Under the pieces are notes generated by a model. It saw only the letters and a list, made by a program, of their open reading frames with translations, was not told where the DNA came from and searched no databases. Made by a program: the position numbers and the translations under genes. From positions 62,001-126,000 of the forward strand of contig CADECF010000011.1 in assembly GCA_902825775.1 (NCBI GenBank): a DNA stretch of 64,000 nt, read 5' to 3'. Origin of the DNA: an uncultured Lysobacteraceae bacterium (lineage in GTDB: Bacteria; Pseudomonadota; Gammaproteobacteria; Xanthomonadales; Xanthomonadaceae). This document shows, in pieces, positions 3,495-17,739 of the stretch. Positions within the stretch are counted from its first letter, which is position 1, and each line of letters begins with the position of its first letter.

Positions 3495-4850
3495 ATGACG
3501 TTCGACAGGGATTCCATCCGCGCGTTCCGCTTCACCGGTTGCGATTTCGACGCCTGCAGCGGCATCGCGCGCCTGGGCTATGCTTTCGACGACGGTCCGG
3601 AGCTGGTCGAAACCATCACCCTCTCGGGCGCGCCGTTCGCGCTCGGCGGCGCGCGCGCGCAGGCTGCGGAAAAGGCGCTGCGTCTGCTGCACCTGATCAC
3701 CGGCGTCAGCTACTACAAAGCGGCGGTGCCCGAGGAAATCCGCATCGACTCGTACGGCATCGATGCCGACACGGCTGCGTTGATGGAAGAGCTCTACCTC
3801 AACGGGCTGGGCGAATTCGCTTATCGCAACGGCCTGAATCTGCATGGACGCATCCGTTTTCCGGTCGCCGACAGCGGCATCGGCGCCGATGCCGCGCCGC
3901 TCGGATTGCGCAGGCACGCCCTGGTCGCGATCGGCGGCGGCAAGGATTCGCTGGTCAGTATCGAAGCGTTGCGCGCAGCGGGCGTCGACCAAACCGTCAC
4001 CTGGGTCGGCGGTTCGCAATTGATCAAAGCCTGCGCCGAACGCACCGGCCTGCCGACGTTCAACATCGGCCGACAGCTGGCGCCGGAATTGTTCGAATAC
4101 AACCGCCAGGGCGCGTACAACGGCCATATCCCGGTCACCGCGATCAACTCGGCGATCATGGTGTTCGCCGCGGTATTGCTCGGCGTCGACCAGGTGGTGT
4201 TCTCCAACGAGCGCTCGGCCAGTTACGGCAGCCTGATCGAAGGCACGGGCGAGGTGAACCACCAATGGTCCAAGGGATGGATCTTCGAACGCGATTTCGG
4301 CGGTTATGTGCAGCGCCGCATCGCCGCCGACCTTCACTACTACTCGCTGCTGCGGCCGCTAAGCGAGCTCGCTGTGGCGCGCCAATTCGCCAAGACGGAT
4401 CGCTACGACGCGCATTTCTCCAGTTGCAACCGCAATTTCCACCTGCTCGGCGAACGTCCGGCCAGCCGCTGGTGCGGCGTGTGCCCTAAATGCCATTTCG
4501 TGTTCCTGGCGCTGGCGCCGTTCATGCCCAAGCCGCGATTGGTATCGATTTTCGGCCGCAACCTGCTCGACGACGCCGCGCAGATTCCGGGTTACGACGC
4601 GCTGCTCGAATTCCAGGACCACAAGCCTTTCGAATGCGTCGGCGAAGGCAAGGAATCGCGCGCGGCGATGGCGACGCTGGCGCAGCGTCCGGAATGGCAG
4701 GAAGACGCCATCGTCGAGCGTTTCGACCGCGAGATCCGGCCGCAATTGAACGCATCCGAACTCGACATCGCGCCGCTGCTGGCGATCGACGACGAACATC
4801 GCGTTCCGCCCGCGCTGTGGGACAAGCTTCGTGCGTATTTCACAGCTTGA
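3495..4850 (+). CDS. murL: UDP-MurNAc-L-Ala-L-Glu epimerase MurL
   Basis: 451 residues. MurL inverts the L-glutamate of UDP-MurNAc-L-Ala-L-Glu to D-glutamate, an ATP-dependent step described from Xanthomonas oryzae that replaces the usual glutamate racemase MurI. Visible motifs are a PP-loop-like [10 protein letters not shown] near residues 145-154, the conserved [11 protein letters not shown] block, and a Cys-rich segment [10 protein letters not shown] near residue 328. The strongest support is context: murD2, the ligase that makes its substrate, follows directly with a 20 bp overlap. The PP-loop alone could suggest a QueC or asparagine-synthase-like enzyme, but the length and the murD2 partner favour MurL. 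The ATG at 3495 is 4 bp past the preceding stop. Confidence 0.9.
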
Positions 4851-6216
4851 AGGCCGGCGCGTCGCGCTGTGGGGTTGGGGCCGCGAGGGCCGCGCTGCGT
4901 ATCGCGCGATCCGTTTACGCCTGCCGCAGCTGCCGCTGACGCTGTTCTGCAATGCCGATGAAGCCGCCGAAGCGCGCGCGGCCGGCGATGCCGCGCTGAG
5001 CGTCGAAACCGATGCCAGTGCGGGTCGCTTGTCGGCCTTCGATATCGTGGTCAAATCGCCAGGCATCAGCCCTTACAAACCCGAAGCGATGATCGCCGCG
5101 CACGAGGGCGCGCGTTTCGTCGGCGGCACCGCGTTGTGGTTCGCCGAGCGCCCCGATGCGCGCACGATCTGCGTCACCGGCACCAAGGGCAAGAGCACCA
5201 CCACCGCGTTGCTAGCGCACCTGCTGCGCGCCGGCGGACATCGCACGGCCTTGTGCGGCAATATCGGTCTGCCCTTGTTGGAACTGCTCGACGACGAGGC
5301 CGAATTCTGGGCGATCGAGCTTTCCAGCTACCAGACGCGCGACGTCGCCGGTTCCGGCGTGCGTCCGCATATCGCCGTGGTCACCAATATCTTCCCGGAG
5401 CATCTGGACTGGCATGGCAGCGAGCAACGCTATGTCGAGGACAAATTGGCGTTGCTGACCGAAGGCAAGCCGCGCCTCGCCGTGCTCAATGCGCAGGACC
5501 GAAGACTCGCCGCGTTGTCGTTGCCCGACAGCGAGGTGCGCTGGTTCGGCCGCGAGGATGGCTGGCATCTGCGCGGCGACGATCTGTTCCGCGGCGGCGA
5601 TTTCGTATTCGACACGCGCCCGGTGGCGCTGCCCGGCCGACACAATCGGGGCAATCTCTGCGCGGTGCTGACCGCTGTAGAGGCGCTGGGGCTCGATGCC
5701 GCCGCGCTGGCGCCGCTGGTGCAGGGCTTCGTGCCGTTGCCGCATCGGTTGCAGACCCTGGGTGTGCGCGACGGCATCGTCTACGTCAACGATTCGATCA
5801 GCACCACGCCGCATGCGAGCCTGGCGGCGCTGGAGGTGTTTCGCGGGCGCCGGGTCGCGATCCTGCTCGGCGGCCACGACCGTGGTATCGATTGGACCGA
5901 ATTCGCGCTCGCGATAGGAGCCAATGCGCCCGCAGTCGTCGTCACTTTGGGCCAGAACGGTCCGCGCATCCACGAACTGCTGAGCAATGTGGCGCGTACC
6001 GCCGGTTTCCGGCTGTCGAGCGCCGACGATCTCGAACAAGCCGTCGCGCAGGCGCGCGCCGCGCTGGCGGGCGAGGGCGTGATTCTGCTATCGCCGGGCG
6101 CGCCGAGTTTCGGCCCCTATCGCGACTACACCTATCGCGGCCGGCATTTCGCGCAGCTGGCCGGCTTCGATCCGGATATCATCGCGTCGATCCCCGGCCT
6201 GGGCATCTCTTTGTAG
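4831..6216 (+). CDS. murD2: UDP-MurNAc-L-alanine--L-glutamate ligase MurD2
   Basis: 461-residue Mur ligase of the MurD type. The N-terminal Rossmann part carries WGWGREGRA and VKSPGISPY; the central ATPase has [11 protein letters not shown] near residues 114-124, then [17 protein letters not shown] and the substrate-domain [19 protein letters not shown] lies in the C-terminal domain. In Xanthomonas MurD2 adds L-Glu, not D-Glu, to UDP-MurNAc-L-Ala, after which MurL epimerises it. Paralogy with canonical MurD makes the motifs alone ambiguous; the overlap with murL decides the call. The TAG stop (6214-6216) lies inside the end of an intergenic palindromic repeat. Confidence 0.9.
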
Positions 6217-6334
6217 AGCGGAGCTCTCGCTCTTGTGGGAGCGGCTTCAGCCGCGAGCTTTTCCTTATCGGAATCGAGAGCTCGCGGCTGAAGCCGCCCC
6301 TACATAAAAGCAGCGGGGCAAGCCCCGCTCTACA
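6212..6334. repeat. Nested intergenic palindromic repeats (outer TGTAGAGCGG type, inner TGTGGGAGCGG type)
   Basis: Outer ends are TGTAGAGCGGAGC (from 6212) and GCCCCGCTCTACA (to 6334). Between them sits an inner pair of another family, TTGTGGGAGCGGCTTCAGCC (from 6233) and GGCTGAAGCCGCCCCTACA (to 6304). Each half is itself a small hairpin. This looks like one repeat inserted in another. The outer left end supplies the murD2 stop codon. Confidence 0.85.
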
Positions 6335-6381
6335 AAAGCAGGCGCTTGCCGGGTCGCGCCATCACTCGGGAGATTGCCGCT

Positions 6382-7173
6382 ATGCGCCGTTCGCTACTCG
6401 CTGTCGGGTTATCGCTGTGCTCCGTTTCAGCCTCCGCCGCCATGAAATCCGAACCGATCGAATACAAGGTCGGCAACGACGCCTTCAGCGGATATCTGGT
6501 CTACGACGATGCCGGCAAGGACAAGCGTCCCGGACTGGTGATGGTCCCCAACTGGATGGGCGCGACCGAAGACTCGGTGGAAAAAGCCAAGAAGATCGCC
6601 GGCGACGATTACGTGATCCTGATCGCCGACGTCTACGGCAAGGGCGTGCGGCCGAAGGACAGCAAGGAAGCCGGCGAACAGACGCGCAAGGCCTATACCG
6701 ATGGCGGCACGACGCTGCGGGCGCGGGCGCAGGCGGCGGTGGATGCGCTGAAGGCGCAGAAAGAAAAATTGCCGCTCGACGACACCAAGATCGGCGCTTT
6801 CGGTTTCTGCTTCGGCGGCTCGGTGGCGCTGGAATTGGCGCGCTCGGGCAGCGACATCAAGGGTGGCGTGGTCAGCTTGCACGGCGGCCTGGAAGGCTAT
6901 GTGCCGATCAAGGACAACAAGGTCAACACGCCGGTCCTGGTGCTCAACGGCGCCGACGACAGCGGCGTGACGGACGAAAGCATCGTCGCGTTCCAGAAGG
7001 AAATGGATGCGGCCAAGGCCGATTGGCAATTCGTCGATTTCAGCGGCGCGGTGCATTGCTTCACGCAGCCGGAATCCAATAGTCCGCCGAACTGCGTCTA
7101 TAACGAAAAAGCGGCGAAGCGGGCGTTCCGGATGATGGACGATTTCTTCGAGGAGCAGTTCGCGGCGAAGTAG
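6382..7173 (+). CDS. Secreted dienelactone hydrolase family protein
   Basis: 263 residues from the ATG at 6382, chosen because it opens a signal peptide (MRRSLLAVGLSLCSVSASAA) and has GGGAG about 10 bp upstream; a start at 6346 would bury that signal. The mature part is an alpha/beta hydrolase of the dienelactone hydrolase family with a cysteine nucleophile, GFCFGGS (C143), an acid in NGADDSG (about D192), and a histidine in AVHCF (H225). The Cys-Asp-His triad is complete. Family members hydrolyse esters or lactones; the substrate cannot be told. A periplasmic location follows from the signal. No pathway genes are adjacent. Confidence 0.85.
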   Translation: MRRSLLAVGLSLCSVSASAAMKSEPIEYKVGNDAFSGYLVYDDAGKDKRPGLVMVPNWMGATEDSVEKAKKIAGDDYVILIADVYGKGVRPKDSKEAGEQTRKAYTDGGTTLRARAQAAVDALKAQKEKLPLDDTKIGAFGFCFGGSVALELARSGSDIKGGVVSLHGGLEGYVPIKDNKVNTPVLVLNGADDSGVTDESIVAFQKEMDAAKADWQFVDFSGAVHCFTQPESNSPPNCVYNEKAAKRAFRMMDDFFEEQFAAK

Positions 7174-7180
7174 GCTTTTT

Positions 7181-7330
7181 CCTCTCCCCAACGGGGAGAG
7201 GATGCCCGGAGGGCAGGAGAGGGGCGCGAGCGTAGCGAAGCGTGCTTTTGCTTTTAATGCGGATGGCGTGAAAAGCCGGACCCTCTCCCTGGCCTTCGGC
7301 CTGTCCCTCTCCCGCAAGCGGGAGAGGGAA
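7181..7330. repeat. Dispersed intergenic repeat, CTCTCCC/GGGAGAG type
   Basis: About 150 bp between two convergent genes. It starts with the hairpin CTCTCCCCAACGGGGAGAG and ends with CCCTCTCCCGCAAGCGGGAG. The middle contains GCGAGCGTAGCGAAGCGTGC and TGGCCTTCGGCCTGTCCC. A near copy with the same middle blocks lies at 42731-42873, also between convergent genes. Confidence 0.8.
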
Positions 7331-7342
7331 AAGCGCACGCCG

Positions 7343-8341
7343 TCAGCTTTTCCTATCGACGGCGTAATGCGCCAGCCCGCGCAACGCGGCGACGCCGTCG
7401 TTGTCTTCGAGGCCTTCCAACGCGCGTTCCGCCGCATCGGCGTATTCGTTGGCGCGGGCGCGGCTGTACTCGAGGCCGCTTGTCGCATTGATCGCGGCCA
7501 GCACTTCCGGCAGCGCCGATGCGTCGCCGTTCTCGACGACTTCGCGCAAACGCGCGGCGATCTCGGCCGGGCTATGCGCGATCGCATGGATCAGCGGCAG
7601 CGTGGCCTTGCCTTCGGCCAGATCGTCGCCCAAATGCTTGCCCAGGTCGGCTTCGTCGGCGCTGTAGTCGAGCACGTCGTCGGCGATCTGGAAGGCGTAG
7701 CCCAGGGCCATGCCGTAATCGTGAAAACGCTGCTGCATCCCGGCGTCCGCACCGGCCAGCAGCGCGCCCAGCCGGGTGGCGGCGGCGAACAACACCGCGG
7801 TCTTGCGTTCGATCACACGCAGATAAGCGGCCTCGTCCGTATCCGGATTGCGCACGTGCAGCAGCTGCAGCACTTCGCCCTCGGCGATCGCATTGGTGGT
7901 ATCGGCCAGGATCCGCATCACTTCGATCCGATCGAGTTCCACCATCAGCTGGAAGCTGCGCGAATACAGGAAATCCCCGACGAGCACGCTCGGCGCATTG
8001 CCCCACAGCGCATTGGCGGTCTTGCGGCCGCGGCGCAGGTCCGATTCGTCGACCACATCGTCGTGCAGCAGGGTGGCCGTATGGATGAATTCGATCACCG
8101 CGGCCAGCTGGTGCGCGTCGGCGCCGGCATGGCCGAGCGCGCGCGCGGCCAGCAGCAGCAGCATCGGCCGCAGCCGTTTGCCCCCGGCGGCGACGATGTG
8201 CTCGCCGATCTGGTTGACCAGGACCACGTCCGAGGCCAGGCGCCGCCGGATCAGGGTGTCGACGGCGGCCATGTCGGGACCTGCCAGGGCCTGGATTGCG
8301 GTCAGGTCTAGCGTTCGCAGGCGGGAAGACGCGGAATCCAT
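7343..8341 (-). CDS. ispB: Octaprenyl (polyprenyl) diphosphate synthase
   Basis: 332 residues. Trans-isoprenyl diphosphate synthase that extends farnesyl diphosphate with IPP to make the ubiquinone side chain. Both Asp-rich motifs are present: DDVVDESD near residues 94-101 and DDVLDY near 221-226, with GGKRLRP upstream and FQIADD before the second. Length fits the IspB class. I chose the ATG at 8341; the frame extends to a TTG at 8368 that would sit on the likely promoter. It diverges from ssb, and a minus-strand TATAAT (8373-8368) lies just upstream. The octaprenyl length is family inference. Confidence 0.92.
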
Positions 8342-8367
8342 GGGGCGGCCGGGACGAAAAGAGGGCA

Positions 8368-8373
8368 ATTATA
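8368..8373 (-). promoter_or_regulatory. Probable ispB -10 hexamer
   Basis: Reads TATAAT on the minus strand, 26 bp before the ispB ATG. No good -35 is visible at standard spacing, so this rests on the perfect -10 in a GC-rich background. Confidence 0.4.
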
Positions 8374-8451
8374 AGAGCGGGCGGCGCCGTACAATTCAGA
8401 TTAGACCGACCTGCGGTCGCGATATCGGCCTACGGCCCTGGGGAGCGCGGC

Positions 8452-8457
8452 TATAAT
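8452..8457 (+). promoter_or_regulatory. Probable ssb -10 hexamer
   Basis: TATAAT 48 bp before the ssb ATG. A similar TACAAT with the same TTCA flank lies at 8390-8395. No clear -35 box is seen. Confidence 0.4.
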
Positions 8458-8505
8458 TCAATGATGCGGCCCGATCCGGGCAGGCACAGATTAAGGACGG
8501 CAAGA

Positions 8506-8985
8506 ATGGCCCGCGGCGTAAACAAAGTGATCCTGGTCGGCAACCTCGGCAACGACCCCGAAACCAAGTACACCCAGGGCGGCATGGCCGTGACCACGAT
8601 CAGCTTGGCCACCAGCAGCGTGCGCAAGGATAAGGACGGCAATACCCAGGAACGCACCGAATGGCATCGGGTGAAGTTCTTCGGCAAGCTCGGCGAGATC
8701 GCCGGCGAATATCTGCGCAAGGGCCGCCAGGTGTACGTGGAAGGCTCGATCCGCTACGACAAGTTCACCGGCCAGGACGGCGTCGAGAAGTATTTCACCG
8801 ACATCGTCGCCGATGAGATGCAGATGCTCGGCAGCACCGAAGGCCGGGGCGCAGAGCGCACCGAGCGCAGCAGCGGCGGCAGCGAGCGTCCATCGCGTCC
8901 GGCGCCCGCGCAGCGCCGCGAACCGTCGCAGCCGGCATCGCAGCAGGGCATGGACGATTTCGCGGACGACGACATCCCGTTCTGA
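8506..8985 (+). CDS. ssb: Single-stranded DNA-binding protein
   Basis: 159 residues. Begins [19 protein letters not shown], the standard start of the OB-fold (residues about 1-110), followed by a flexible Gly/Ser/Pro/Gln-rich linker and the acidic tip DFADDDIPF. That tip is the docking site for replication, repair and recombination partners. The ATG at 8506 is preceded by AAGGA at 8493-8497. SSB coats single-stranded DNA at forks and repair sites as a tetramer. Linker and tip are intact. Confidence 0.97.
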
Positions 8986-9062
8986 TCCCGCGCCGCGGTC
9001 CGCCGCGGCGTTCGGTGGGCGCATTCTGCGCCGCTGGTCACATCTCCGGCACGATGGATGCG

Positions 9063-9102
9063 GACACTGACCAATGTCGGTGTCTGGTTCCCGCCAAGGG
9101 AA
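9063..9102. promoter_or_regulatory. Double dyad upstream of the beta-helix gene (copy 1)
   Basis: Two back-to-back inverted repeats: GACACTGAC (9063-9071), 4 bp, GTCGGTGTC (9076-9084); then 3 bp; then TTCCC (9088-9092), 5 bp, GGGAA (9098-9102). It ends 34 bp before the ATG at 9137. The same architecture with the same spacings occurs at 12350-12389, upstream of the sensor-kinase gene. Confidence 0.6.
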
Positions 9103-9136
9103 TCAAAATCGAGCTTCAGCGTTCGGGGAGAAGATC

Positions 9137-10801
9137 ATGCGTAAGGATTTTCGCGTCGTGTGGGCTTTGGCTTTCGTGCTCGGATCGCCCGCGGCACTGG
9201 CCGCGACCTACACGGTCGGCCCCAGCGGCCGGCAATACACGCAACTGTCGGCCGTGATCAACGCCAGGAACCTGGCGCCGGGCGACCTTATCCTGGTGGA
9301 CGGCAATGCCACCTATTCGGGCGGAGTGGTGCTCGACGAAGACGACGGCGGCGCGCCCGGCAACCCGGTGACGATCCGCTGGCGCCGCGAGCCGGGCGCT
9401 TCGCGGCCGGTGCTGACCGGCGGCACGCACACCATCAAGTTCCAGCAGTCCGACCACGTGGTGCTGGAAGGCTTCGAAATCCGCAACGCCTCGAAAACCT
9501 GCGTCTTCAGCGAGGCCGACGATATCACCGTGCGCGACAGCGTGATCCACGACTGCGACGAACACGGCATCCTGGGCGCCGACGAGAATTCGGGGTCGTT
9601 CACGCTGGAATACAGCGAAGTATTCGACGCCGGGGCGGGCAGTCAAAAACATCCGATCTACATGCAGTCCGACGAAGTGGCGCATCCCGGTTCGGTCTTC
9701 CGCATGCGTTTCAATTACGTCCACGACGGCAATGGCGGCAATCTCCTCAAGAGCCGGCACGAGCGCAACGAGATCTATTACAACTGGTTCGAAGGCGCCG
9801 CTTTCCAAGAAATCGAGCTGATCGGCCCCGATTGCGAAACCCAGGCCGGCAGTTGGACGCCCGGCTTGAAGACCGAGAATTCGGACGTGGTCGGCAACGT
9901 CATCGTGCATACCGGCGACGGGGACAACGCGATCCGCATCGGCGGCGATCTCAACGGCCGCAACATGGGCCATGTGCGCATGGTCAACAACACGATCCTG
10001 ATCGACCGCTTGGGCGGCGCCAATGCCGTGCTGGTGCAATTGGGCCAGGGCCGGCTGGAGATGCACAACAACCTGATCTACCAGAACAGCGGCACGGCGC
10101 CGGCGATCGTGCGCGAGAATCCCGCCAGCGCGCACGAGGAGCCGCCCGCTTGCCCGCCACTCGATCTCGAGCCTTGGGCCGACGGACGCAAGGTCACCGG
10201 CACCAATAACTGGGTGCAGAGCGGCGCAAGCAACGTGCCGGCGGAATGGACCGGCACTTTGAAAGGCCTCGATCCGATGCTGGCCAATATCGCCCAGCGC
10301 AATCTGCGGCCCGTAGCCGGCAGCCCTGTGCTCAACAAGGGCAATAGCACTCCGCCGGCGCCCGCTGGCGCGCCGTTCCCGACGCCATTGCTCGTCGCGC
10401 TGGCCGACCCGCCTGTTCAAGTCAAACTCGCCATCGGCAATTGGCGTCCGCGAACGGCCGCGGGCGGACTCGATATCGGCGCGTTCGAATCCGTCAAGTC
10501 GAATGAGCCATCGCCGCGCGAAGGTTCGCAGCCGTTTATTCCGCCGAAGCCGCCGGCGCTGGGCGCATCAGCGCCCGCACCCGTTGCCGCGCGGCCCGAA
10601 TCGGCGCCTGCGCTACCGGCGCGGACGGACAACCCGACGCTGCCGCTGTCCACGCCGCGCGCGATTTCGCGCACGGCATTGCCGACCCTGCCTTCGTCAG
10701 TGTCCTGGTCGTGCCTGCTGCAGTCGCCGCCTTCGGCATGGAGCCTGCCGATCGATCTGTACCTGCGTGCGAGCTGGTGCGGAATGGATCCTTACCGATA
10801 G
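9137..10801 (+). CDS. Secreted right-handed parallel beta-helix protein with Pro/Ala-rich tail
   Basis: 554 residues from the ATG at 9137, preceded by GGGGAGAAG. The signal peptide is MRKDFRVVWALAFVLGSPAA LA. Residues about 25-450 have repeated short strands with Asn ladders (HVVLEGFEIRNA, DITVRDSVIHDC, HVRMVNNTILID, RLEMHNNLIYQN), typical of right-handed beta-helix proteins such as polysaccharide lyases or pectate-lyase-like folds. Residues about 455-535 are low-complexity Pro/Ala. I see no clear lyase active site, so the activity is unknown. An extracellular or periplasmic carbohydrate-active or adhesive role is possible. The double dyad just upstream links it to the kinase at 12458. Confidence 0.8.
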   Translation: MRKDFRVVWALAFVLGSPAALAATYTVGPSGRQYTQLSAVINARNLAPGDLILVDGNATYSGGVVLDEDDGGAPGNPVTIRWRREPGASRPVLTGGTHTIKFQQSDHVVLEGFEIRNASKTCVFSEADDITVRDSVIHDCDEHGILGADENSGSFTLEYSEVFDAGAGSQKHPIYMQSDEVAHPGSVFRMRFNYVHDGNGGNLLKSRHERNEIYYNWFEGAAFQEIELIGPDCETQAGSWTPGLKTENSDVVGNVIVHTGDGDNAIRIGGDLNGRNMGHVRMVNNTILIDRLGGANAVLVQLGQGRLEMHNNLIYQNSGTAPAIVRENPASAHEEPPACPPLDLEPWADGRKVTGTNNWVQSGASNVPAEWTGTLKGLDPMLANIAQRNLRPVAGSPVLNKGNSTPPAPAGAPFPTPLLVALADPPVQVKLAIGNWRPRTAAGGLDIGAFESVKSNEPSPREGSQPFIPPKPPALGASAPAPVAARPESAPALPARTDNPTLPLSTPRAISRTALPTLPSSVSWSCLLQSPPSAWSLPIDLYLRASWCGMDPYR

Positions 10802-10900
10802 CGGCTCATCCGTCGTCCATGCGGCGATAGGCAGCCGCACTGCTGCCTCTGCTTTCGAGAGTCGGCAAAGGCGGGGCATCCAGCGACTTTACCCCGGCTT

Positions 10901-11095
10901 TGTAGAGCGGGGCTTGCTCCGTTTTGTACCGTCATCCCAGCGAACGCTGGGACCCATTTCCCTGCTGCCCTTCAGCCGTGATCCCGGCGAAAGCCGGGAT
11001 CCAGGCCCGGGACGGAGCCTGAGCGCAGTGAGGCAGGTTGCAAGAAGCCAACAAGCAAGAGCAGCGGAGCAAGCCCCGCTCTACAAAACAAAGGC
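10901..11095. repeat. Composite palindromic repeat between convergent genes
   Basis: Fills most of the 394 bp gap 10802-11195, where I see no gene. Outer ends are TGTAGAGCGGGGC (from 10901) and GCCCCGCTCTACA (to 11095). Inside are hairpins of a different type, ATCCCAGCGAACGCTGGGA and ATCCCGGCGAAAGCCGGGAT, resembling a second repeat family inserted between the two outer halves. Confidence 0.8.
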
Positions 11096-11195
11096 AACGG
11101 CACTGTATACCGGCGTTCGCCTGGTTGACGGCTTTAAGGGCAAGAACAGCGGAGCAAGATCATTGAGCCGTGCGTGGATGATCCGATGCGTCGCA

Positions 11196-12116
11196 TCAAC
11201 GACGATCGCCGGCATCCGTCTCGCGCGCCACCGGCGGCAGGCTGCGCAGGAACAGCCATATCGAATGCAGTTCGGCATCGCTCGCCTGGCCGACCGCGCG
11301 CCAAGGCATGGCCTTGCCGTCGAGTTCGCTGCCGTCCGGCCTGCGGCCGGTTCGCATCGCGACGATGAAATCGCGTTCGCTCCAATCCGCAAGGCCGGTC
11401 GCATGCGGCGTCAGATTGGCGGCTGGCGGCATGCCCGGGCCGCCGTGATCCATGCGTCCGCCGGCGAAATCGCCGCGATGGCAGCCGGTGCACAACTGCG
11501 CGGCGTGACGGCCGTATTCGAGCGTGCCCAGCGACGGCGGTGCGGCGACCGCGCTTTGCGCGTGATCGATGGTCTCGGCCGAAAGGAAGCCGTCCAGCTT
11601 GCCGCCGACCAGCAATGCGCGGCCGATCGGTCCCATCGCGCTGTCGGGCAATTCGTGCCGCACCGGCGCCAACGTGGCGAAATAGGCCGATAGCGCATCG
11701 ATTTCCTGCACGCTCAGGCTGGCGAATTCCTTGGACGGCATCATCAGCAACGGCCGCGAATCCATGTCGACGCCATGATGCAGCGCGCGGAACATGCGTT
11801 CGCGGATGGAAGCCTTTTCGTGCCCGGCCGGCATACGCGTCAGGTCGTCGCCGACGACGCGCGCGAACGGCATTTCGTCCAGCAATACTTTTCCGCCGAA
11901 GTCGTCGCCATGGCAGTCGGCGCAGCCGCGCGAACGAGCCAGATGCTTGCCTTGCGCGGCGAGCGCCGGATCCGCCGTCGCCGGCGCGACATGAATCGCG
12001 TAGTCCTTGCGCAAACGCGTTTCGCTCAGCGCGTACACGAGAGCTGCGGCGAGCAAACACAAACCGAGAAGGACTCCGGCGCCGTACAGCGCTCGACGTA
12101 CGATTTTTCCAGTCAT
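11196..12116 (-). CDS. Membrane-anchored diheme cytochrome c
   Basis: 306 residues. An N-terminal hydrophobic segment (residues about 9-29) anchors or exports it. Two c-type heme sites are visible: CADCH near residue 65 and CTGCH near residue 211, each in its own cytochrome-c-like domain. Met ligand candidates include LLMMPS and MPW. Domain layout resembles the cytochrome c subunits of alcohol, aldehyde or gluconate dehydrogenases, but no dehydrogenase gene is adjacent and the partner is unknown. It acts in periplasmic electron transfer. It ends close to a palindromic repeat at a convergent junction. Confidence 0.85.
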   Translation of the reverse strand: MTGKIVRRALYGAGVLLGLCLLAAALVYALSETRLRKDYAIHVAPATADPALAAQGKHLARSRGCADCHGDDFGGKVLLDEMPFARVVGDDLTRMPAGHEKASIRERMFRALHHGVDMDSRPLLMMPSKEFASLSVQEIDALSAYFATLAPVRHELPDSAMGPIGRALLVGGKLDGFLSAETIDHAQSAVAAPPSLGTLEYGRHAAQLCTGCHRGDFAGGRMDHGGPGMPPAANLTPHATGLADWSERDFIVAMRTGRRPDGSELDGKAMPWRAVGQASDAELHSIWLFLRSLPPVARETDAGDRR

Positions 12117-12457
12117 GGGGGCATGCGGCTGCTATGCAGGCGTCGGGGCGACGCCTGCCGGGGGATCGAGCATCATGGCGGTCCGCCGCGCGGCATGACA
12201 CCGCAAAACGATAGGCCGTAGGGGTAACGCAGGCCGGTGCCTGTGCGATTCGATGCGGCCAGGCAGCGTTTCGGACGTTTTCGGCGTGCTCCGTCGCGGC
12301 AATGGGCGGGTCCGCGCCTGTTTTGGATGAGGAGCCGTCCCGGCAGGGGCATACTGACTTTGGTCAGTGTCCGATACCCACCGGGGGTACGCGCCAGCGC
12401 CCTGCCTGCTGCGTACCATGCCTACGGCCCGCCCGCGAATGAACGCTGCGAATCGCA
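12117..12457. other. Divergent intergenic region, cytochrome c / sensor kinase
   Basis: 341 bp without a credible gene. It holds the double dyad at 12350-12389 (listed separately). I see no good sigma-70 promoter and no dispersed repeat. Confidence 0.6.
12350..12389. promoter_or_regulatory. Double dyad upstream of the sensor-kinase gene (copy 2)
   Basis: CATACTGAC (12350-12358), 4 bp, GTCAGTGTC (12363-12371); 3 bp; TACCC (12375-12379), 5 bp, GGGTA (12385-12389). Spacings match 9063-9102 exactly. The second dyad differs from copy 1 in both arms together (TTCCC/GGGAA against TACCC/GGGTA), so symmetry is kept. It ends 68 bp before the ATG. Confidence 0.6.
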
Positions 12458-14128
12458 ATGTTGGCTTCCGCTACCGCTACCGCTAACGACATCGGCACGC
12501 AGCTCGAGTTGCTGTCGCAGATGATCGAGGAAATTTCCGGCGAGCTGGCGCTGGAGCCGTTGCTGTGCCGGATCGTCGAGCGCGCCTGCAAATTGATCGG
12601 CGCCGACGACGGCGTGATCGGGCTGTATGTGCCCGAGCTGGACGCCATCCGCACAGCGGCGAGCTACAACATCCCCCACGACGAACTGCGCGCGGTGCTG
12701 GCGCGCGGCCACGGGCTGACCGGTCGCGTGTTGGAACTGGATGCGCCGCTGCGTTGCCGCTACGGCGACCTGCCGTATCCGAGCAGGACCGCGGCGCGCG
12801 ATATGAACATGCTGGGCATGCCGATCCGCGCGCGCGGCAAGCTGATCGGCGTGTTCGGCATCGGCACCTGGCCGCCGCGCGTGCTGGATGCGCAGGCGCA
12901 GGATCTGCTCGATCTGTTCGCGCGCCATGCCGCCATTGCCATCCAGAACGCGCAACGCTATGCCGAAGAACATCGCCGCGCGTCGCGCTTCGCATTGATC
13001 GCTCGCGTCGCGGCGATCGGCGCGACCGGCCCGGATCTGGAGAACCTGCTGCAGCAGGCCGCCGACGCCATCCACGAAACCTTGGAATATCCCAACGTCG
13101 ACATACCGCTGGTCGATCTGGACGACCCGGAAACTTTGGTGATCAGCGTGCGCGGCGGCGACTACAAGCGCCTGATCCGGCATACCGATCGTCTGCCGGT
13201 GGGGCAGGGCATCATGGGCGCCGCAGCGCGGGAGCGGCGCGTGCAATTGGTGAACGACGTGGCCAGCGACCCGCGCTACGTCACGCCGCCCGGCGTGCGC
13301 AAGCCGCTCGCCGAGCTGGCGATACCGATCGTGCACGGCGATGCGGTGTTGGGCGTGCTCAATGTCGAAGGCGATCGCGCTTTCGACGAACTCGACCGCG
13401 CCAGCCTGGAAATCGTGGCCGAACACCTGGGCGTGGCGATCGTCAACGCGCGGCTGTACGAGCGTTCGACCCAGGTGGCGTTGCTGGAGGAGCGCCAGCG
13501 CTTGGCGCGCGACCTGCACGACAGCGTCACCCAGATCCTGGCGTCGATGAGCCTGATCGCGCAGTCGCTGAGCGAAGCCTGGTACTACAACCCGGCCGAA
13601 GGCGAGCGTCGCGCCGCGCGCTTGAGCGAGCTGGCGCAACTGGCGTTCGCCGAGCTGCGCGGCCTGCTGCGCGAACTCTCGCCCAGCGACGCGCCCAGCA
13701 AAAAAGGCGTGTTCCCCGCCGTCAAGCAAGACTTGCCGGTGACGCTGCAGCGGCTGCTCGAAGCGATGGTGCCGGCGCATATCCGCCTCACCCTGGATAC
13801 CGGCGGCTATCGGCCGCAGCACCGGGCCCACGAGGAAGCGATGCTGCGCGTGTGCCAGGAAGCCGTCTCCAACGCAGTGCGGCACGCCGAGCCCCGCCGC
13901 ATCGGCATCGTACTTTCGGTCGATGGCAAAGCCATGCGCCTGCGCGTGTGCGACGACGGCCGCGGCATGCCTGCCGCCGCTGCGCCCGGGATGGGCCTGG
14001 GCAATATGCGCGAACGGCTCGCCGAACACGGCGGCGAGCTGGTGATCGGACCAAGCAAGCCGCACGGCACCCGCATCGACGCTTACCTTCCGCGTGACGA
14101 CATCGAACCTGGCAAGAGGCAAAAATGA
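12458..14128 (+). CDS. Soluble two-GAF sensor histidine kinase (NarL-system type)
   Basis: 556 residues without a membrane segment, so a cytoplasmic sensor. Two GAF domains occupy about residues 20-165 and 185-335. A HisKA_3 dimerisation domain follows, with LARDLHDSVTQ (phospho-acceptor His354). The C-terminal HATPase shows EAVSNAVRHAEP (N box) near 465-475 and DDGRGMP near 498. It should phosphorylate the regulator encoded next, whose ATG overlaps its stop by 4 bp. The signal is unknown; GAF domains can bind small molecules, heme or redox ligands, and no diagnostic residues stand out. The ATG at 12458 has a poor ribosome site, so the start is less certain. Confidence 0.9.
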   Translation: MLASATATANDIGTQLELLSQMIEEISGELALEPLLCRIVERACKLIGADDGVIGLYVPELDAIRTAASYNIPHDELRAVLARGHGLTGRVLELDAPLRCRYGDLPYPSRTAARDMNMLGMPIRARGKLIGVFGIGTWPPRVLDAQAQDLLDLFARHAAIAIQNAQRYAEEHRRASRFALIARVAAIGATGPDLENLLQQAADAIHETLEYPNVDIPLVDLDDPETLVISVRGGDYKRLIRHTDRLPVGQGIMGAAARERRVQLVNDVASDPRYVTPPGVRKPLAELAIPIVHGDAVLGVLNVEGDRAFDELDRASLEIVAEHLGVAIVNARLYERSTQVALLEERQRLARDLHDSVTQILASMSLIAQSLSEAWYYNPAEGERRAARLSELAQLAFAELRGLLRELSPSDAPSKKGVFPAVKQDLPVTLQRLLEAMVPAHIRLTLDTGGYRPQHRAHEEAMLRVCQEAVSNAVRHAEPRRIGIVLSVDGKAMRLRVCDDGRGMPAAAAPGMGLGNMRERLAEHGGELVIGPSKPHGTRIDAYLPRDDIEPGKRQK

Positions 14129-14775
14129 ACGAACAACCGATCCGAATCCTGTTGGTGGACGACCATGCCGTCGTCAGGGAAGGCCTGCGCGGCCTGCTCG
14201 AGCAACAGGAGAGCATGCAGGTAGTGGGCGAAGCCGACGATGGCCTGAGCGCTTTGGACCATCTCGCATCCGATACGCCCGACGTGGTGGTGCTGGACAT
14301 GAAGATGCCCGGCCCCAGCGCGGTGGAAACGATCGCTGCGATCAAGCGACGATCGCCGGACGTGAAGATCCTGGTATTCACAAGCTACGCGGAAGATTCG
14401 CAGGTGCGCGACGCGCTCACCGCCGGCGCCACCGGCTATCTGCTGAAAGACGCCTTGCGCGACGACCTGATCAGGGCGGTGCACGAAGTCGCCGCCGGCC
14501 GCGCTTGGCTGCATCCGCAGGCGCAACGTCAGATGTTGGATTGGATGCGGCGCCCGCCGTCGCCGATCGATTCGCTGACCGCACGCGAACGTTCCGTGCT
14601 GGGCCTGCTGGCCGAAGGCCTCAGCAACAAACAGATCGCGCGTCAGCTCGATCTCACCGAGGGCACGGTGAAGGGCTATGTCAGCCAGGTGCTGGACAAA
14701 CTCGGCGTCGCAGACCGCACCCAGGCCGCATTGCTCGCGCACAAGGAAGGCCTGGAAGCGTTGGGCCGCACCTGA
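14125..14775 (+). CDS. NarL/FixJ-family response regulator
   Basis: 216 residues. The receiver domain has the acidic pair D12-D13 (LLVDDHAVVREG), phospho-acceptor D58 in VVVLDMKMPGPS, and the lysine of GYLLKDA. The C-terminal LuxR-type helix-turn-helix (residues about 150-212) reads LTARERSVLGLLAEGLSNKQ, then IARQLDLTEGTVKGYVSQV. It is the obvious partner of the kinase it overlaps. The TACCC...GGGTA dyad upstream of the operon resembles the NarL-type TACxxxT heptamer pair, so autoregulation is plausible but inferred. Confidence 0.93.
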   Translation: MNEQPIRILLVDDHAVVREGLRGLLEQQESMQVVGEADDGLSALDHLASDTPDVVVLDMKMPGPSAVETIAAIKRRSPDVKILVFTSYAEDSQVRDALTAGATGYLLKDALRDDLIRAVHEVAAGRAWLHPQAQRQMLDWMRRPPSPIDSLTARERSVLGLLAEGLSNKQIARQLDLTEGTVKGYVSQVLDKLGVADRTQAALLAHKEGLEALGRT

Positions 14776-14810
14776 CGCGTTCGTCTGCGCGTAGGCTTAT
14801 TGCCTTGTCT

Positions 14811-14839
14811 TGTAGAGCGGAGCTTGCTCCGCTGCTCTT
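14811..14839. repeat. Single palindromic repeat unit at a convergent junction
   Basis: One half-element, TGTAGAGCGGAGCTTGCTCC then GCTGCTCTT, forming a hairpin. The inverted partner found in other copies is missing. Confidence 0.7.
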
Positions 14840-14896
14840 CGCTTTCTTGCGCGAGTCGCGCCGAAACGTGCCGGCCCAGCGATCCGGATGCCTGCG

Positions 14897-15313
14897 CTAG
14901 CGTCCGGCGAGCGGCTGCTTGAGTTTGGCGATCTCCGGCAAGAGACGCGAGCGATCGAAATAGACTTCGTTGCGGTAGATCTTTCCGGCACCGTCCAACT
15001 GCACCGTGCAGACGCCGTAAATATCCAGCGAAACCGTGCCGACCGGGATGCGGGCCCGCCATTTGTTCAAGAAGCCGTCCTGCAACGGGATCGCTTCCAC
15101 CAATGTCCACACCCAATCCGGGTTGTAGGCGAGCAACTTGCGGAAATGGGCCAGCACTGCCGGCTTGCCTTCGACGCCGGCGGGGATCGCCGGGTCCGAG
15201 TAGAACGCGTCGTCGGCATAGAAATCCGCCAACCGTTCCGGATCGTTGCCGGTCCACGCAGGCAGCCATCGTTCGGCGAAATGCCGGGCTTGCTCGGGAT
15301 TGAGATGGTTCAT
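14897..15313 (-). CDS. SnoaL-like / NTF2-fold protein
   Basis: 138 residues. The sequence (ERWLPAWTGNDPERLADFYA, then DDAFYSDPAIP and GVEGKPAVLAHFRKLL) fits the SnoaL-like polyketide cyclase or nuclear-transport-factor-2 fold, a cone-shaped small domain used by many enzymes and binding proteins. It has no signal peptide and is cytoplasmic. The function cannot be assigned: the family includes cyclases, isomerases and non-enzymatic proteins. It shares orientation with the glutathione transferase upstream but is separated by 438 bp, so it is probably transcribed alone. Confidence 0.75.
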   Translation of the reverse strand: MNHLNPEQARHFAERWLPAWTGNDPERLADFYADDAFYSDPAIPAGVEGKPAVLAHFRKLLAYNPDWVWTLVEAIPLQDGFLNKWRARIPVGTVSLDIYGVCTVQLDGAGKIYRNEVYFDRSRLLPEIAKLKQPLAGR

Positions 15314-15751
15314 CGCGCGCTCCGATCCGTCGGCCGGCGATACGGATGAAAAGCCGTTCGAAGGCGGCCGCCGGCAAAAAAACCGCGCTCGTTTCAGACA
15401 CCCATGCGCGTCGTAGTCAGGCGGAGGCGCGGCATCGGCGGAGAGGGCGCCCCGGCGGCCCTCTTACCCCGGGGGGAAGCAAGCGAGCCGCCGGAGCGGT
15501 AAGACTTTGGACTGCGACGGCTGTGCGAAAAGCGAGGACGTCGCGGCGATAAAAAAACTTCCGGCGAACCGCTCGTATAAGGGGCGGATCGCAAACGGCG
15601 GTTCGCCGGAAGCAAACGCTCGTCATAGTGGGCGGGTCGTACCGCAACGGCAGCGCCTACCCTAGATTCAGAATGAGCCAGCCGTCACAAGCGCGGTAGC
15701 GACCGGCGGCAGGGTCTGCACCCTGCCTTTGGTCGGTGCGCGACGATGCGT
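15314..15751. other. Intergenic region with no recognised gene
   Basis: 438 bp between two minus-strand genes. Short open frames here are strongly Arg/Pro-rich and look like GC-rich noise. It contains one long hairpin with a T-run on the minus strand (15551-15612). At 15724-15738 there is a partial match (CTGCCTTTGGTCGGT) to the first dyad of the motif at 12350. A small RNA cannot be excluded. Confidence 0.5.
15551..15612 (-). terminator. Candidate intrinsic terminator of the glutathione transferase gene
   Basis: Perfect 15 bp inverted repeat: CTTCCGGCGAACCGC (15558-15572) and its complement at 15598-15612, with a 25-base loop. On the minus strand it is followed at once by seven Ts (15557-15551). 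It lies 140 bp past the stop of the gene at 15752-16384. The long loop is unusual for a terminator. Confidence 0.55.
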
Positions 15752-16384
15752 TCACGCGCTAGCAAGATCGGCGCTCAAGCCTTCGGCCTCAAGCGCGGCG
15801 CGTACGCCTGCGTCGGCTTCCATGCGGCGCTTGAAGGCGGCCAAGTGGGTTAGGCCGCCCAGATCGATGATGGGGAACATGTCCGCCCAGCGCAGCATTA
15901 CGTACAGATAGGCATCTGCAGCGCTGCGAAAGCCTGCGAACCATTGGCGTCCGTCCAACTGCGCGTCGGCGCGTTCGAACATCTCGCGCAGGCGTATCGC
16001 CGCGGCTTTCTTGAGCGCGTCGTGCTGATCGGGCTCTGGCAGGAAGATTGCCGGAGCGAAGAACGTGCCGAACACCGGATGCATGTCGGTGCTGCCCAGC
16101 GCGAGCCACCGCATGGCTTCGGCGCGTTGCTTGGCGCTGCCGTCGCCGAACAGGCCTGCATGGGGATGGAGCTCGCCGATGTAGGCCAGGATCGCGATGT
16201 TCTGGGTCAGCACGTATTCGCCGTCCACCAGCACCGGCACCATGCCGGCCGGATTCAATGCCCGGAATCGGGGAGATGCGAGCGTCTCCCCGGTCATGAT
16301 TTCGATTTCGAAAGGTTGTCCGGTCCACTGCAGGGCGATGTGGTCGGCGGTCGAGCACGCGCCGGGGTAGGTCATCAATTTCAT
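15752..16384 (-). CDS. Glutathione S-transferase family protein
   Basis: 210 residues. Residues about 1-78 form the thioredoxin-like domain (MKLMTYPGACSTADHIALQW, then NPAGMVPVLVDG with the cis-Pro, and LTQNIAILAYIGE with the glutathione-binding Gln-Asn). Residues about 85-200 are the all-helical domain. The Cys-Ser at residues 10-11 resembles the beta-class bacterial enzymes that use a cysteine near residue 10. It conjugates or reduces with glutathione in the cytoplasm; the substrate is unknown. Monocistronic by context. Confidence 0.9.
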   Translation of the reverse strand: MKLMTYPGACSTADHIALQWTGQPFEIEIMTGETLASPRFRALNPAGMVPVLVDGEYVLTQNIAILAYIGELHPHAGLFGDGSAKQRAEAMRWLALGSTDMHPVFGTFFAPAIFLPEPDQHDALKKAAAIRLREMFERADAQLDGRQWFAGFRSAADAYLYVMLRWADMFPIIDLGGLTHLAAFKRRMEADAGVRAALEAEGLSADLASA

Positions 16385-16565
16385 GCGGCACCGGTTATGC
16401 GAGGGGAAAGCGATTTTCGTCCCGAGCGCTCGCGCACGGGCACCGCGATCAGAAGGATCCGGCCGCTATCCTTTGTCGGTGATGCGCGGCTGCAGAAGGA
16501 AGGTTGGCGGCGCGGTGCGAAGCTGACTGATCGATACAGGAGCCCCCTGCAGCCTTCGGTTACAA

Positions 16566-16583
16566 TTGCCAGCGAACTGGCAA
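16566..16583. promoter_or_regulatory. Palindrome upstream of rmlB
   Basis: TTGCCAG (16566-16572), 4 bp, CTGGCAA (16577-16583), within the 299 bp between the glutathione transferase and rmlB. It could be an operator for the rhamnose operon. No regulator is identifiable. Confidence 0.35.
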
Positions 16584-16683
16584 GCCAGGTATTCGGCCTG
16601 TAAATACCTGATTTTGCTGAATAAATTATGAGGCGCACCGGCCGGCCTATGCTCGCGGCGCGTCGATATGAAGGAACCATCGC

Positions 16684-17739
16684 GTGCAGACTTGGTTGGT
16701 GACCGGCGGCGCCGGATTTATTGGCGGCAATTTCGTCCTCGAGGCGGTGAGCCTCGGCATGCGCATCGTCAATCTCGACGCGCTGACCTATGCCGGCAAC
16801 CTCGACACGCTGTCGTCGCTCGATGGTGATCCCCGCCACAATTTCGTGCACGGCGATATCGGCGACCGCGCATTGCTGGCGCGGCTGCTGGTCGAGCACC
16901 GGCCCGACGCGATCGTCAATTTCGCCGCCGAGAGCCACGTCGACCGTTCGATTGAGGGCCCTGCCGCATTCGTGCAGACCAATGTCGTCGGCACCCTGGC
17001 CCTGCTGGAAGCGGCGCGCGATTATTGGAAAGCGTTGGAAGGCCCCGCCAAAGACGCATTCCGTTTCCTGCACGTATCCACCGACGAGGTCTACGGCTCG
17101 CTCGGCGACAGCGGCAAGTTCACCGAGCAAACGGCTTTCGCGCCCAACTCGCCGTACTCGGCATCGAAGGCCGCATCGGACCATCTGGTGCGCGCGTTCC
17201 ACCACACCTACGGCCTGCCGGTGCTGACCACCAACTGCTCCAACAACTACGGCCCGTACCAGTTCCCGGAGAAATTGATCCCGCTGGTGATCGCCAAGGC
17301 GATCGCGGGCGAGCCGCTGCCGATCTACGGCGACGGCAAGAACGTGCGCGACTGGCTGTACGTCGGCGACCACTGCGCCGCGATCCGCGCGGTGCTGGAA
17401 CGCGGCCGCGTCGGCGAAACCTATAACGTCGGCGGCGACGCCGAGCGGCAGAACATCGAAGTGGTGAACGCGATCTGCGCACTGCTGGACGAGCGCCGCC
17501 CACGCGAGGACGGCAAACCGCGCAACTCGCAGATCACCTATGTCAAGGACCGTCCAGGCCACGACCGCCGCTATGCGATCGACGCGTCCAAGCTGCAGAG
17601 CGAGCTGGGCTGGAAGCCGGCGCATACCTTCGAACAGGGCATCGCCGATACGGTCGACTGGTATCTGGGCCGTCAGGATTGGGTGCGGCGCGTGCTCGAC
17701 GGCAGCTACCGTCTCGAGCGCATCGGCCAGGAAGCATGA
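16684..17739 (+). CDS. rmlB: dTDP-glucose 4,6-dehydratase
   Basis: 351 residues. Second enzyme of dTDP-L-rhamnose synthesis: converts dTDP-glucose to dTDP-4-keto-6-deoxyglucose using tightly bound NAD+. Extended SDR features are [11 protein letters not shown] at the N-terminus, STDEVYGSL with the Thr-Asp-Glu catalytic set near residue 130, and [11 protein letters not shown] (Tyr/Lys pair) near residue 158. The start is a GTG at 16684 with AAGGA about 8 bp upstream. It is first of four overlapping or close genes whose products make the activated rhamnose used in LPS O-antigen or exopolysaccharide. Its stop overlaps rmlA by 4 bp. Confidence 0.96.

Follow-up and report, generated by a model that had tools for sequence, protein, structure and literature searches.

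DevR/DosR of Mycobacterium tuberculosis is described as a regulator with an operator, TTSGGGACTWWAGTCCCSAA, built on a GAC-N4-GTC core (PMC2275270), with primary and cooperative secondary sites and with autoregulation (PMC3029386). It is served by two kinases, DosS and DosT, which carry two GAF domains, and its base contacts are made by Lys179, Lys182 and Asn183 (PMC4082495), Lys182 contacting A12 and G13 (PMC5999986). For OsdR of Streptomyces coelicolor, a 16-nt box, AGGGCCGATCGGCCCT, has been reported (PMC5069765). In this study we analyzed a stretch of 64,000 nucleotides (hereafter the window) from the 3.76-Mb genome of an uncultured Lysobacteraceae bacterium (G000). In this window, two sites of the same layout, each composed of a dyad 1 and a dyad 2, lie upstream of a gene for a beta-helix protein and of an operon for a sensor kinase and a response regulator. 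Comparison of genomes suggests, with a probability of roughly 0.7, that dyad 1 is the operator of this NarL/DevR-type regulator (14125-14775), which would act on its own operon and on the beta-helix gene. Dyad 1 was found upstream of both genes in all three same-genus genomes that have both. The features of the locus are as follows.

9063 to 9084, plus strand: dyad 1 of the beta-helix gene, GACACTGAC-N4-GTCGGTGTC; proposed to be the regulator's operator, centred at about -42 from the inferred start
9088 to 9102, plus strand: dyad 2 of the beta-helix gene, TTCCC-N5-GGGAA; possible secondary site
9104 to 9109, plus strand: candidate -10 element CAAAAT, predicted from sequence, 23 nt past the dyad-1 14-mer
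9137 to 10801, plus strand: beta-helix protein of 554 amino acids, exported-looking (Pfam Beta_helix; signal peptide by eye)
12350 to 12371, plus strand: dyad 1 of the kinase-regulator operon, CATACTGAC-N4-GTCAGTGTC; proposed autoregulation operator, centre at about -65
12375 to 12389, plus strand: dyad 2 of the kinase gene, TACCC-N5-GGGTA; centre at about -44
12414 to 12419, plus strand: candidate -10 element TACCAT, predicted from sequence, 46 nt past the dyad-1 14-mer
12458 to 14128, plus strand: sensor kinase of 556 amino acids (Pfam: two GAF domains, HisKA_3, HATPase_c)
14125 to 14775, plus strand: NarL-family response regulator of 216 amino acids (Pfam: Response_reg, GerE), recognition helix LTEGTVKGYVS; proposed to bind both sites

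The three centre positions are counted from the candidate -10 elements and are as provisional as these. Export of all proteins, in the window and in its relatives, was judged by eye from the N-termini.

The original prediction of two sites with a shared layout was confirmed: the spacing is identical at 9063-9102 and 12350-12389. The skeleton GAC-N4-GTC-N11-CCC-N5-GGG occurs twice in the window, compared with a mean of 0.01 in 100 dinucleotide shuffles. Neither CTGAC-N4-GTCRG nor TWCCC-N5-GGGWA is found at any other place in the 64 kb, minus-strand entries being the same palindromes. The 9-bp extended arms that had also been claimed hold at site 1 (eight Watson-Crick pairs and one T.G) but not at site 2, where two of the four outer pairs are Watson-Crick. 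With up to three mismatches the whole motif occurs in the own genome at the two sites alone, and its backwards control nowhere. Four of the 297 family genomes contain it, G000 and G032 with two matches each and G119 and G126 with one each; the latter two, with three mismatches each, are taken as chance.

Conservation was analyzed in four genomes of the same genus (G000, G032, G099 and G072). Dyad 1, as ACTGAC-N4-GTCRGTGTC, precedes the kinase and beta-helix genes in each of the three that possess both. G032 shares with the window the close grouping of the two genes and their sites. G099 carries the kinase gene (80% identical) on one contig and the beta-helix gene (64%) on another; each is preceded by dyad 1, which reads ACTGACTAAAGTCGGTGTC in front of the kinase and CCTGACTTGCGTCGGTATC in front of the beta-helix gene. 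The distance from the beta-helix dyad 1 to the start codon is +74 in the window, +74 in G032 and +70 in G099. The beta-helix candidate -10 element reads CAGAAT in G032 and G099 with the spacing of the window, and that of the kinase reads TACCAT in G032 and TACGAT in G099. Upstream of the kinase, the alignment of the own genome with G032 starts 4 bp before the motif and covers 112 bp (102/112 identical, 91%); the distal 229 bases beyond it gave merely a 13-base match. G072 lacks a kinase orthologue (best E 9.6e-14), and neither a beta-helix homologue (E≤1e-20) nor the motif (at three mismatches) was found in it. Absence of the motif upstream of orthologous kinase genes had been named beforehand as the outcome that would sink the prediction. 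The prediction survived this test inside the genus; outside it the motif was clear at four loci and weak at two, and failed at the others. Regulation of both the operon and the beta-helix gene by the operon-encoded regulator, as had been proposed, is supported as probable.

The Pfam domains bear out the assignment of the regulator to the NarL family. A HisKA_3 kinase adjoins a REC-GerE regulator, the regulator gene overlapping the end of the kinase gene (14125 vs 14128), and an inverted-repeat site upstream of the operon is kept in the G032 and G099 orthologues, as in NarL/FixJ-family two-component systems. By tblastn, 15 regulator copies were found at kinase loci; the recognition helix LTEGTVKGYVS is identical in all 14 intact ones, the 15th (G283) being broken. 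That broken copy lies by the first kinase of G283 (L037, G283:C4, ~3957-8231), and a YadA-head protein gene is divergent from the same kinase.

The proposed mechanism is as follows. The GAF-GAF kinase would phosphorylate the regulator, and a regulator dimer, as the sole binder, would occupy CTGAC-N4-GTCRG. At the beta-helix gene, dyad 1 would lie near -42 and overlap the -35 region; at the kinase-regulator operon it would lie near -65, with a weaker second site near -44. Activation would seem more reasonable than repression, and dyad 2 might be used cooperatively. Such a mechanism would provide the two-component system with an operator that can be tested, with an exported protein as predicted target and probably with an autoregulatory loop.

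Dyad 2 is less widely kept. In G000 and G032, its four copies at the beta-helix and kinase genes form four to five of five Watson-Crick pairs, against zero to three in the 12 other sites compared, none of which is symmetric (at least 4/5). At the beta-helix gene, G032 keeps four of the five pairs and G099 does not keep the dyad; at the kinase gene, the left part alone (ACCCACC-like) recurs in G099, G014, G067 and G100. The same offset at both window sites is unlikely to arise by chance, and we therefore read dyad 2 as a lineage-limited secondary site. The original prediction had taken TACCC...GGGTA as the telling, NarL-like element. This was not supported, as the form is symmetric in the G000 and G032 sites alone and the conserved element is dyad 1. 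The regulator does belong to the family of Escherichia coli NarL (PDB 1a04, E 2e-41). The NarL operator, however, consists of two TACYYMT-type heptamers 2 bp apart (7-2-7), whereas dyad 2 is a 5-N5-5 arrangement over 15 bp and dyad 1 is CTGAC-N4-GTCRG. A reading of dyad 2 as NarL heptamers was rejected on conservation.

A kinase match at E≤1e-100 was found in 8 of 297 family genomes and 8 of 348 order genomes, two being common to both lists; at E≤1e-95, one of 369 class genomes, namely the own genome, has it. In total there are 15 kinase-positive genomes, including a Luteimonas metagenome-assembled genome (L019; G297). A beta-helix homologue (E≤1e-20) is present in 37 of the 297 family genomes. 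For 30 of these 37 loci, the 350 bp upstream of the match start were scored with a 22-column matrix. Its training set of six kinase-associated sites included no window-type beta-helix promoter; one of the six (G067) precedes a different exported protein. The top four regions, G032 (28.5), G000 (24.3), G099 (13.0) and G283 (10.0), are all from kinase-positive genomes; the best kinase-negative region scored 8.5, and kinase-positive G252 ranks 8th with 7.2. When G000 and G032, which are the observation itself, are left out, two of three kinase-positive genomes take ranks 1 and 2 of 28, the chance of which is 3 in 378 by combinations.

The kinase loci were scanned with a 33-column matrix from six same-genus sites, over the kinase gene and 4 kb on each side at 16 loci. 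G014 (17.3), G067 (20.3), G100 (23.6) and G509 (19.5) scored above all 308,526 background positions (highest 14.5), and so did G299 (15.2) and the own C4 kinase (16.4), giving 6 of 16; this search for distant sites was centred on kinase loci and is biased accordingly. At columns 27-33, G014, G067 and G100 share ACCCAC(C/T), outside the pattern by which their sites were first found. The G067 site begins 101 nt ahead of the start codon of a 377-amino-acid protein that looks exported and has a choice-of-anchor Q domain; the gene for it is divergent from the kinase. In G509 the site is 81 nt before a homologue of that protein (47% identity over 309 amino acids) with no match of its own in Pfam or NCBIfam. 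The G014 site is between the kinase and a divergent 870-amino-acid CHRD/RTX-repeat protein. The best G100 site is downstream of the regulator gene, and a weaker one (13.2 bits with a 9-site matrix) is upstream of a CHRD/RTX protein 72% identical to that of G014. In G307 and G316, a weak site lies 132 and 131 nt, respectively, before a CHRD-type gene (called by Pfam in G316), followed by kinase and regulator.

Three models were also used for searches: R1 (9 sites), R2 (the four G000 and G032 sites) and R3 (16 sites from 9 genomes). R1 returned its training sites first, as it must, and then G000:C1:318100 at E 0.061. This own-genome site (G000:C1:318100-318131; L098 1501-1532; 16.2-16.5 bits) is unlinked. 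The minus-strand membrane-protein frame at whose 5' end it lies is divergent from a transporter-like gene. R2, run on 13 kinase-positive and 7 kinase-negative genomes, recovered the G099 kinase site (E 0.0014), and its sole match in G509 lies 1.4 kb from the kinase match (E 1.25). With R3 at E≤0.1, 8 of 15 kinase-positive genomes and 0 of 15 kinase-negative ones had matches, a largely circular result; at E≤2 the counts were 11/15 and 5/15. The unlinked best R3 matches of G310 (E 0.88) and G299 (E 0.67), which are outside its training set, are intergenic. Their minus-strand neighbours encode an RTX-repeat protein (Pfam HemolysinCabind, 74 bits) in G310 and a beta-propeller protein, lipoprotein-like by eye, in G299. 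By the gene for the latter, far from the kinase, an intergenic palindrome, ACTGACTTTGGTCAGT, is found (L131; G299:C1:5360568-5360593).

Several facts weigh against the proposed operator. Similarity served to find several of the 16 sites, whose likeness is therefore partly due to selection. Dyad 1 alone, with up to three mismatches, is not enriched genome-wide (62+62 matches vs 68+61 for the backwards control); this search is uninformative. A consensus promoter scan was empty at both sites. At E≤5, R2 failed to recover the linked sites of G014, G067 and G100, and it gave matches at E 0.33-0.79 in kinase-negative G029, G072 and G010. In the kinase-locus scan, G316 (10.3, a score that falls elsewhere than its weak site by the CHRD-type gene), G307 (7.7), G252 (9.1), G283 (10.0 and 7.3), G310 (10.5), G514 (7.7) and G297 (8.4) were within background. 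The G299 score of 15.2 is probably chance, being inside a ppsA-like coding region. Further weak matches in G310 (C2), G299 (C1:4975851) and G100 (C123) also fall inside reading frames, as do both control matches examined (G012 and G017).

The sites could instead be bound by another regulator, such as a CRP/FNR-family protein, as an external controller of both the beta-helix gene and the kinase operon. The FNR box is TTGAT-N4-ATCAA, and the N4 spacing of dyad 1 is like that of such boxes; linkage of a motif to a regulator gene is, of course, no proof of the binder. Within the genus, however, the motif tracks the presence of kinase and regulator, and the clear distant sites are at kinase loci, with the search bias mentioned above. 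Together with the invariant recognition helix of the NarL-family regulator, these facts make an outside regulator unlikely, though it is the most serious of the alternatives. A structured RNA, the alternative raised in the original prediction, is disfavoured more strongly; it would consist of two hairpins in each gene's 5' leader. Folding of the plus strands does give two hairpins at each site (z -3.8 and -1.6 at sites 1 and 2, respectively), and the T.G pairs of site 1 would be tolerable in RNA. On the other hand, the region 8000-17000 of the window gave no Rfam match up to E 5. Pairing, examined for a covarying helix, was not clearly above that in shuffled sequences: 79.0% vs 77.8% for 9 sites (185 of 500 shuffles as high) and 73.6% vs 71.0% for 16 sites (64 of 500). 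Relative to the exported gene, the consensus runs antisense in G014 and at the weaker G100 CHRD site, the G509 site being too symmetric to assign. Candidate -10 elements are also predicted downstream of the motifs. An RNA structure is thus very unlikely.

It is also conceivable that the two copies, which are similar and 3.3 kb apart, arose by recent duplication or resemble each other by chance and have no function in common. We give this explanation the least credit of all, because in G099 dyad 1 also stands upstream of both genes, although these are unlinked there; moreover, the copies differ much outside the half-sites. We retain dyad 1 as the probable operator of the window regulator. A role of the kinase-side site mainly for the divergent cytochrome c gene (11196-12116) was rejected: G099 has a TonB receptor gene at that place, and the site stays by the kinase. 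In G032 the cytochrome c gene is still beside the kinase.

Additional GAF-GAF kinases, 56-60% identical to the window kinase, are encoded at G000:C2:151511-153121 (L039), G000:C4:285349-286971 (L040) and G032:C1:70254-71858 (L041), with no regulator gene found within the fetched 12 kb; no regulator match was found in the fetched stretch of the G310 kinase either. Each has a dyad-1-like site before a candidate -10 element: in the predicted promoters of the own C2 and the G032 extra kinase, CTAAC-N4-GYCAG is 20 nt before TATATT, and in that of the own C4 kinase, CTGAC-N4-GCGAG is 24 nt before TAGCAT. In the kinase-locus scan, the C2 (14.1) and G032 (13.9) extra kinases were within background. 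These kinases may feed the window-type regulator. We tentatively consider, at somewhat less than even odds, that the system is a portable module of the bacterial order, comprising a GAF-GAF kinase, a regulator with the invariant helix and one operator. Its exported, repeat-rich partner would be swapped in each lineage (parallel beta-helix, choice-of-anchor Q type or CHRD/RTX beta-roll), and regulator-less extra kinases with operator-like promoter copies would feed the same regulator. If this is true in other families, the sensor-regulator-operator set would stay the same as the exported protein changes, and such exported proteins could be sought by means of the operator.

Other sequences in the vicinity are worth noting. 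The weaker half-match predicted at 15724-15738 is present, but it has four mismatches to the 21-base consensus and is not among the own-genome model matches; its surroundings align with G032 (95 bp, 74%), where the half-site letters are changed. Motif-like sequences downstream of the regulator gene are found at L036 10794-10826 (G099, 12.1 bits), L072 5311-5343 (G100) and 15722-15742 of the window, unequal in strength and distance. Inverted repeats resembling repetitive extragenic palindromes (TTGTAGAGCGGGGCTTGCTCCG and its complement) were seen by eye at ~10900-11090 and 14800-14830 of the window, the first stretch following the beta-helix gene and the second the regulator gene. Consensus terminator scans found nothing.

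The kind of system is already known. The open-licence literature searched gave nothing relevant on this motif, on CHRD or choice-of-anchor Q targets or on such a Lysobacter system, and no description of this system or operator was found in it. The best NCBIfam models for kinase and regulator are MadS (101.7 bits) and MadR (178.4 bits), far under the curated equivalog cut-offs of 500 and 300 bits for MadRS-type two-component systems. The closest solved structure to the regulator is DevR (3c3w, E 6.9e-45). Haem sensing of the DosS type was not supported, as the proximal His149 of DosS GAF-A aligns with Val in GAF2 of the window kinase; GAF1 gave no DevS match at E≤0.01. The window kinase shares the two GAF domains of DosS and DosT, dyad 1 shares the GAC-N4-GTC core of the DevR/DosR operator, and the proposed primary and secondary sites and autoregulation resemble those of DevR. 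Dyad 1 has CT/AG as outer bases in place of the GG/CC of the DevR/DosR operator GGGACTWWAGTCCC, and the residues aligned with Lys179, Lys182 and Asn183 are Gly, Lys and Gly. The G matching DosR G13 is invariant in 16/16 sites, on the assumption that A12 and G13 are numbered along the 20-mer TTSGGGACTWWAGTCCCSAA. The kept lysine and the altered outer bases would fit a DevR-like dimer with altered specificity. Unlike those of DevR/DosR, the predicted targets of the window system are exported proteins, not dormancy genes.

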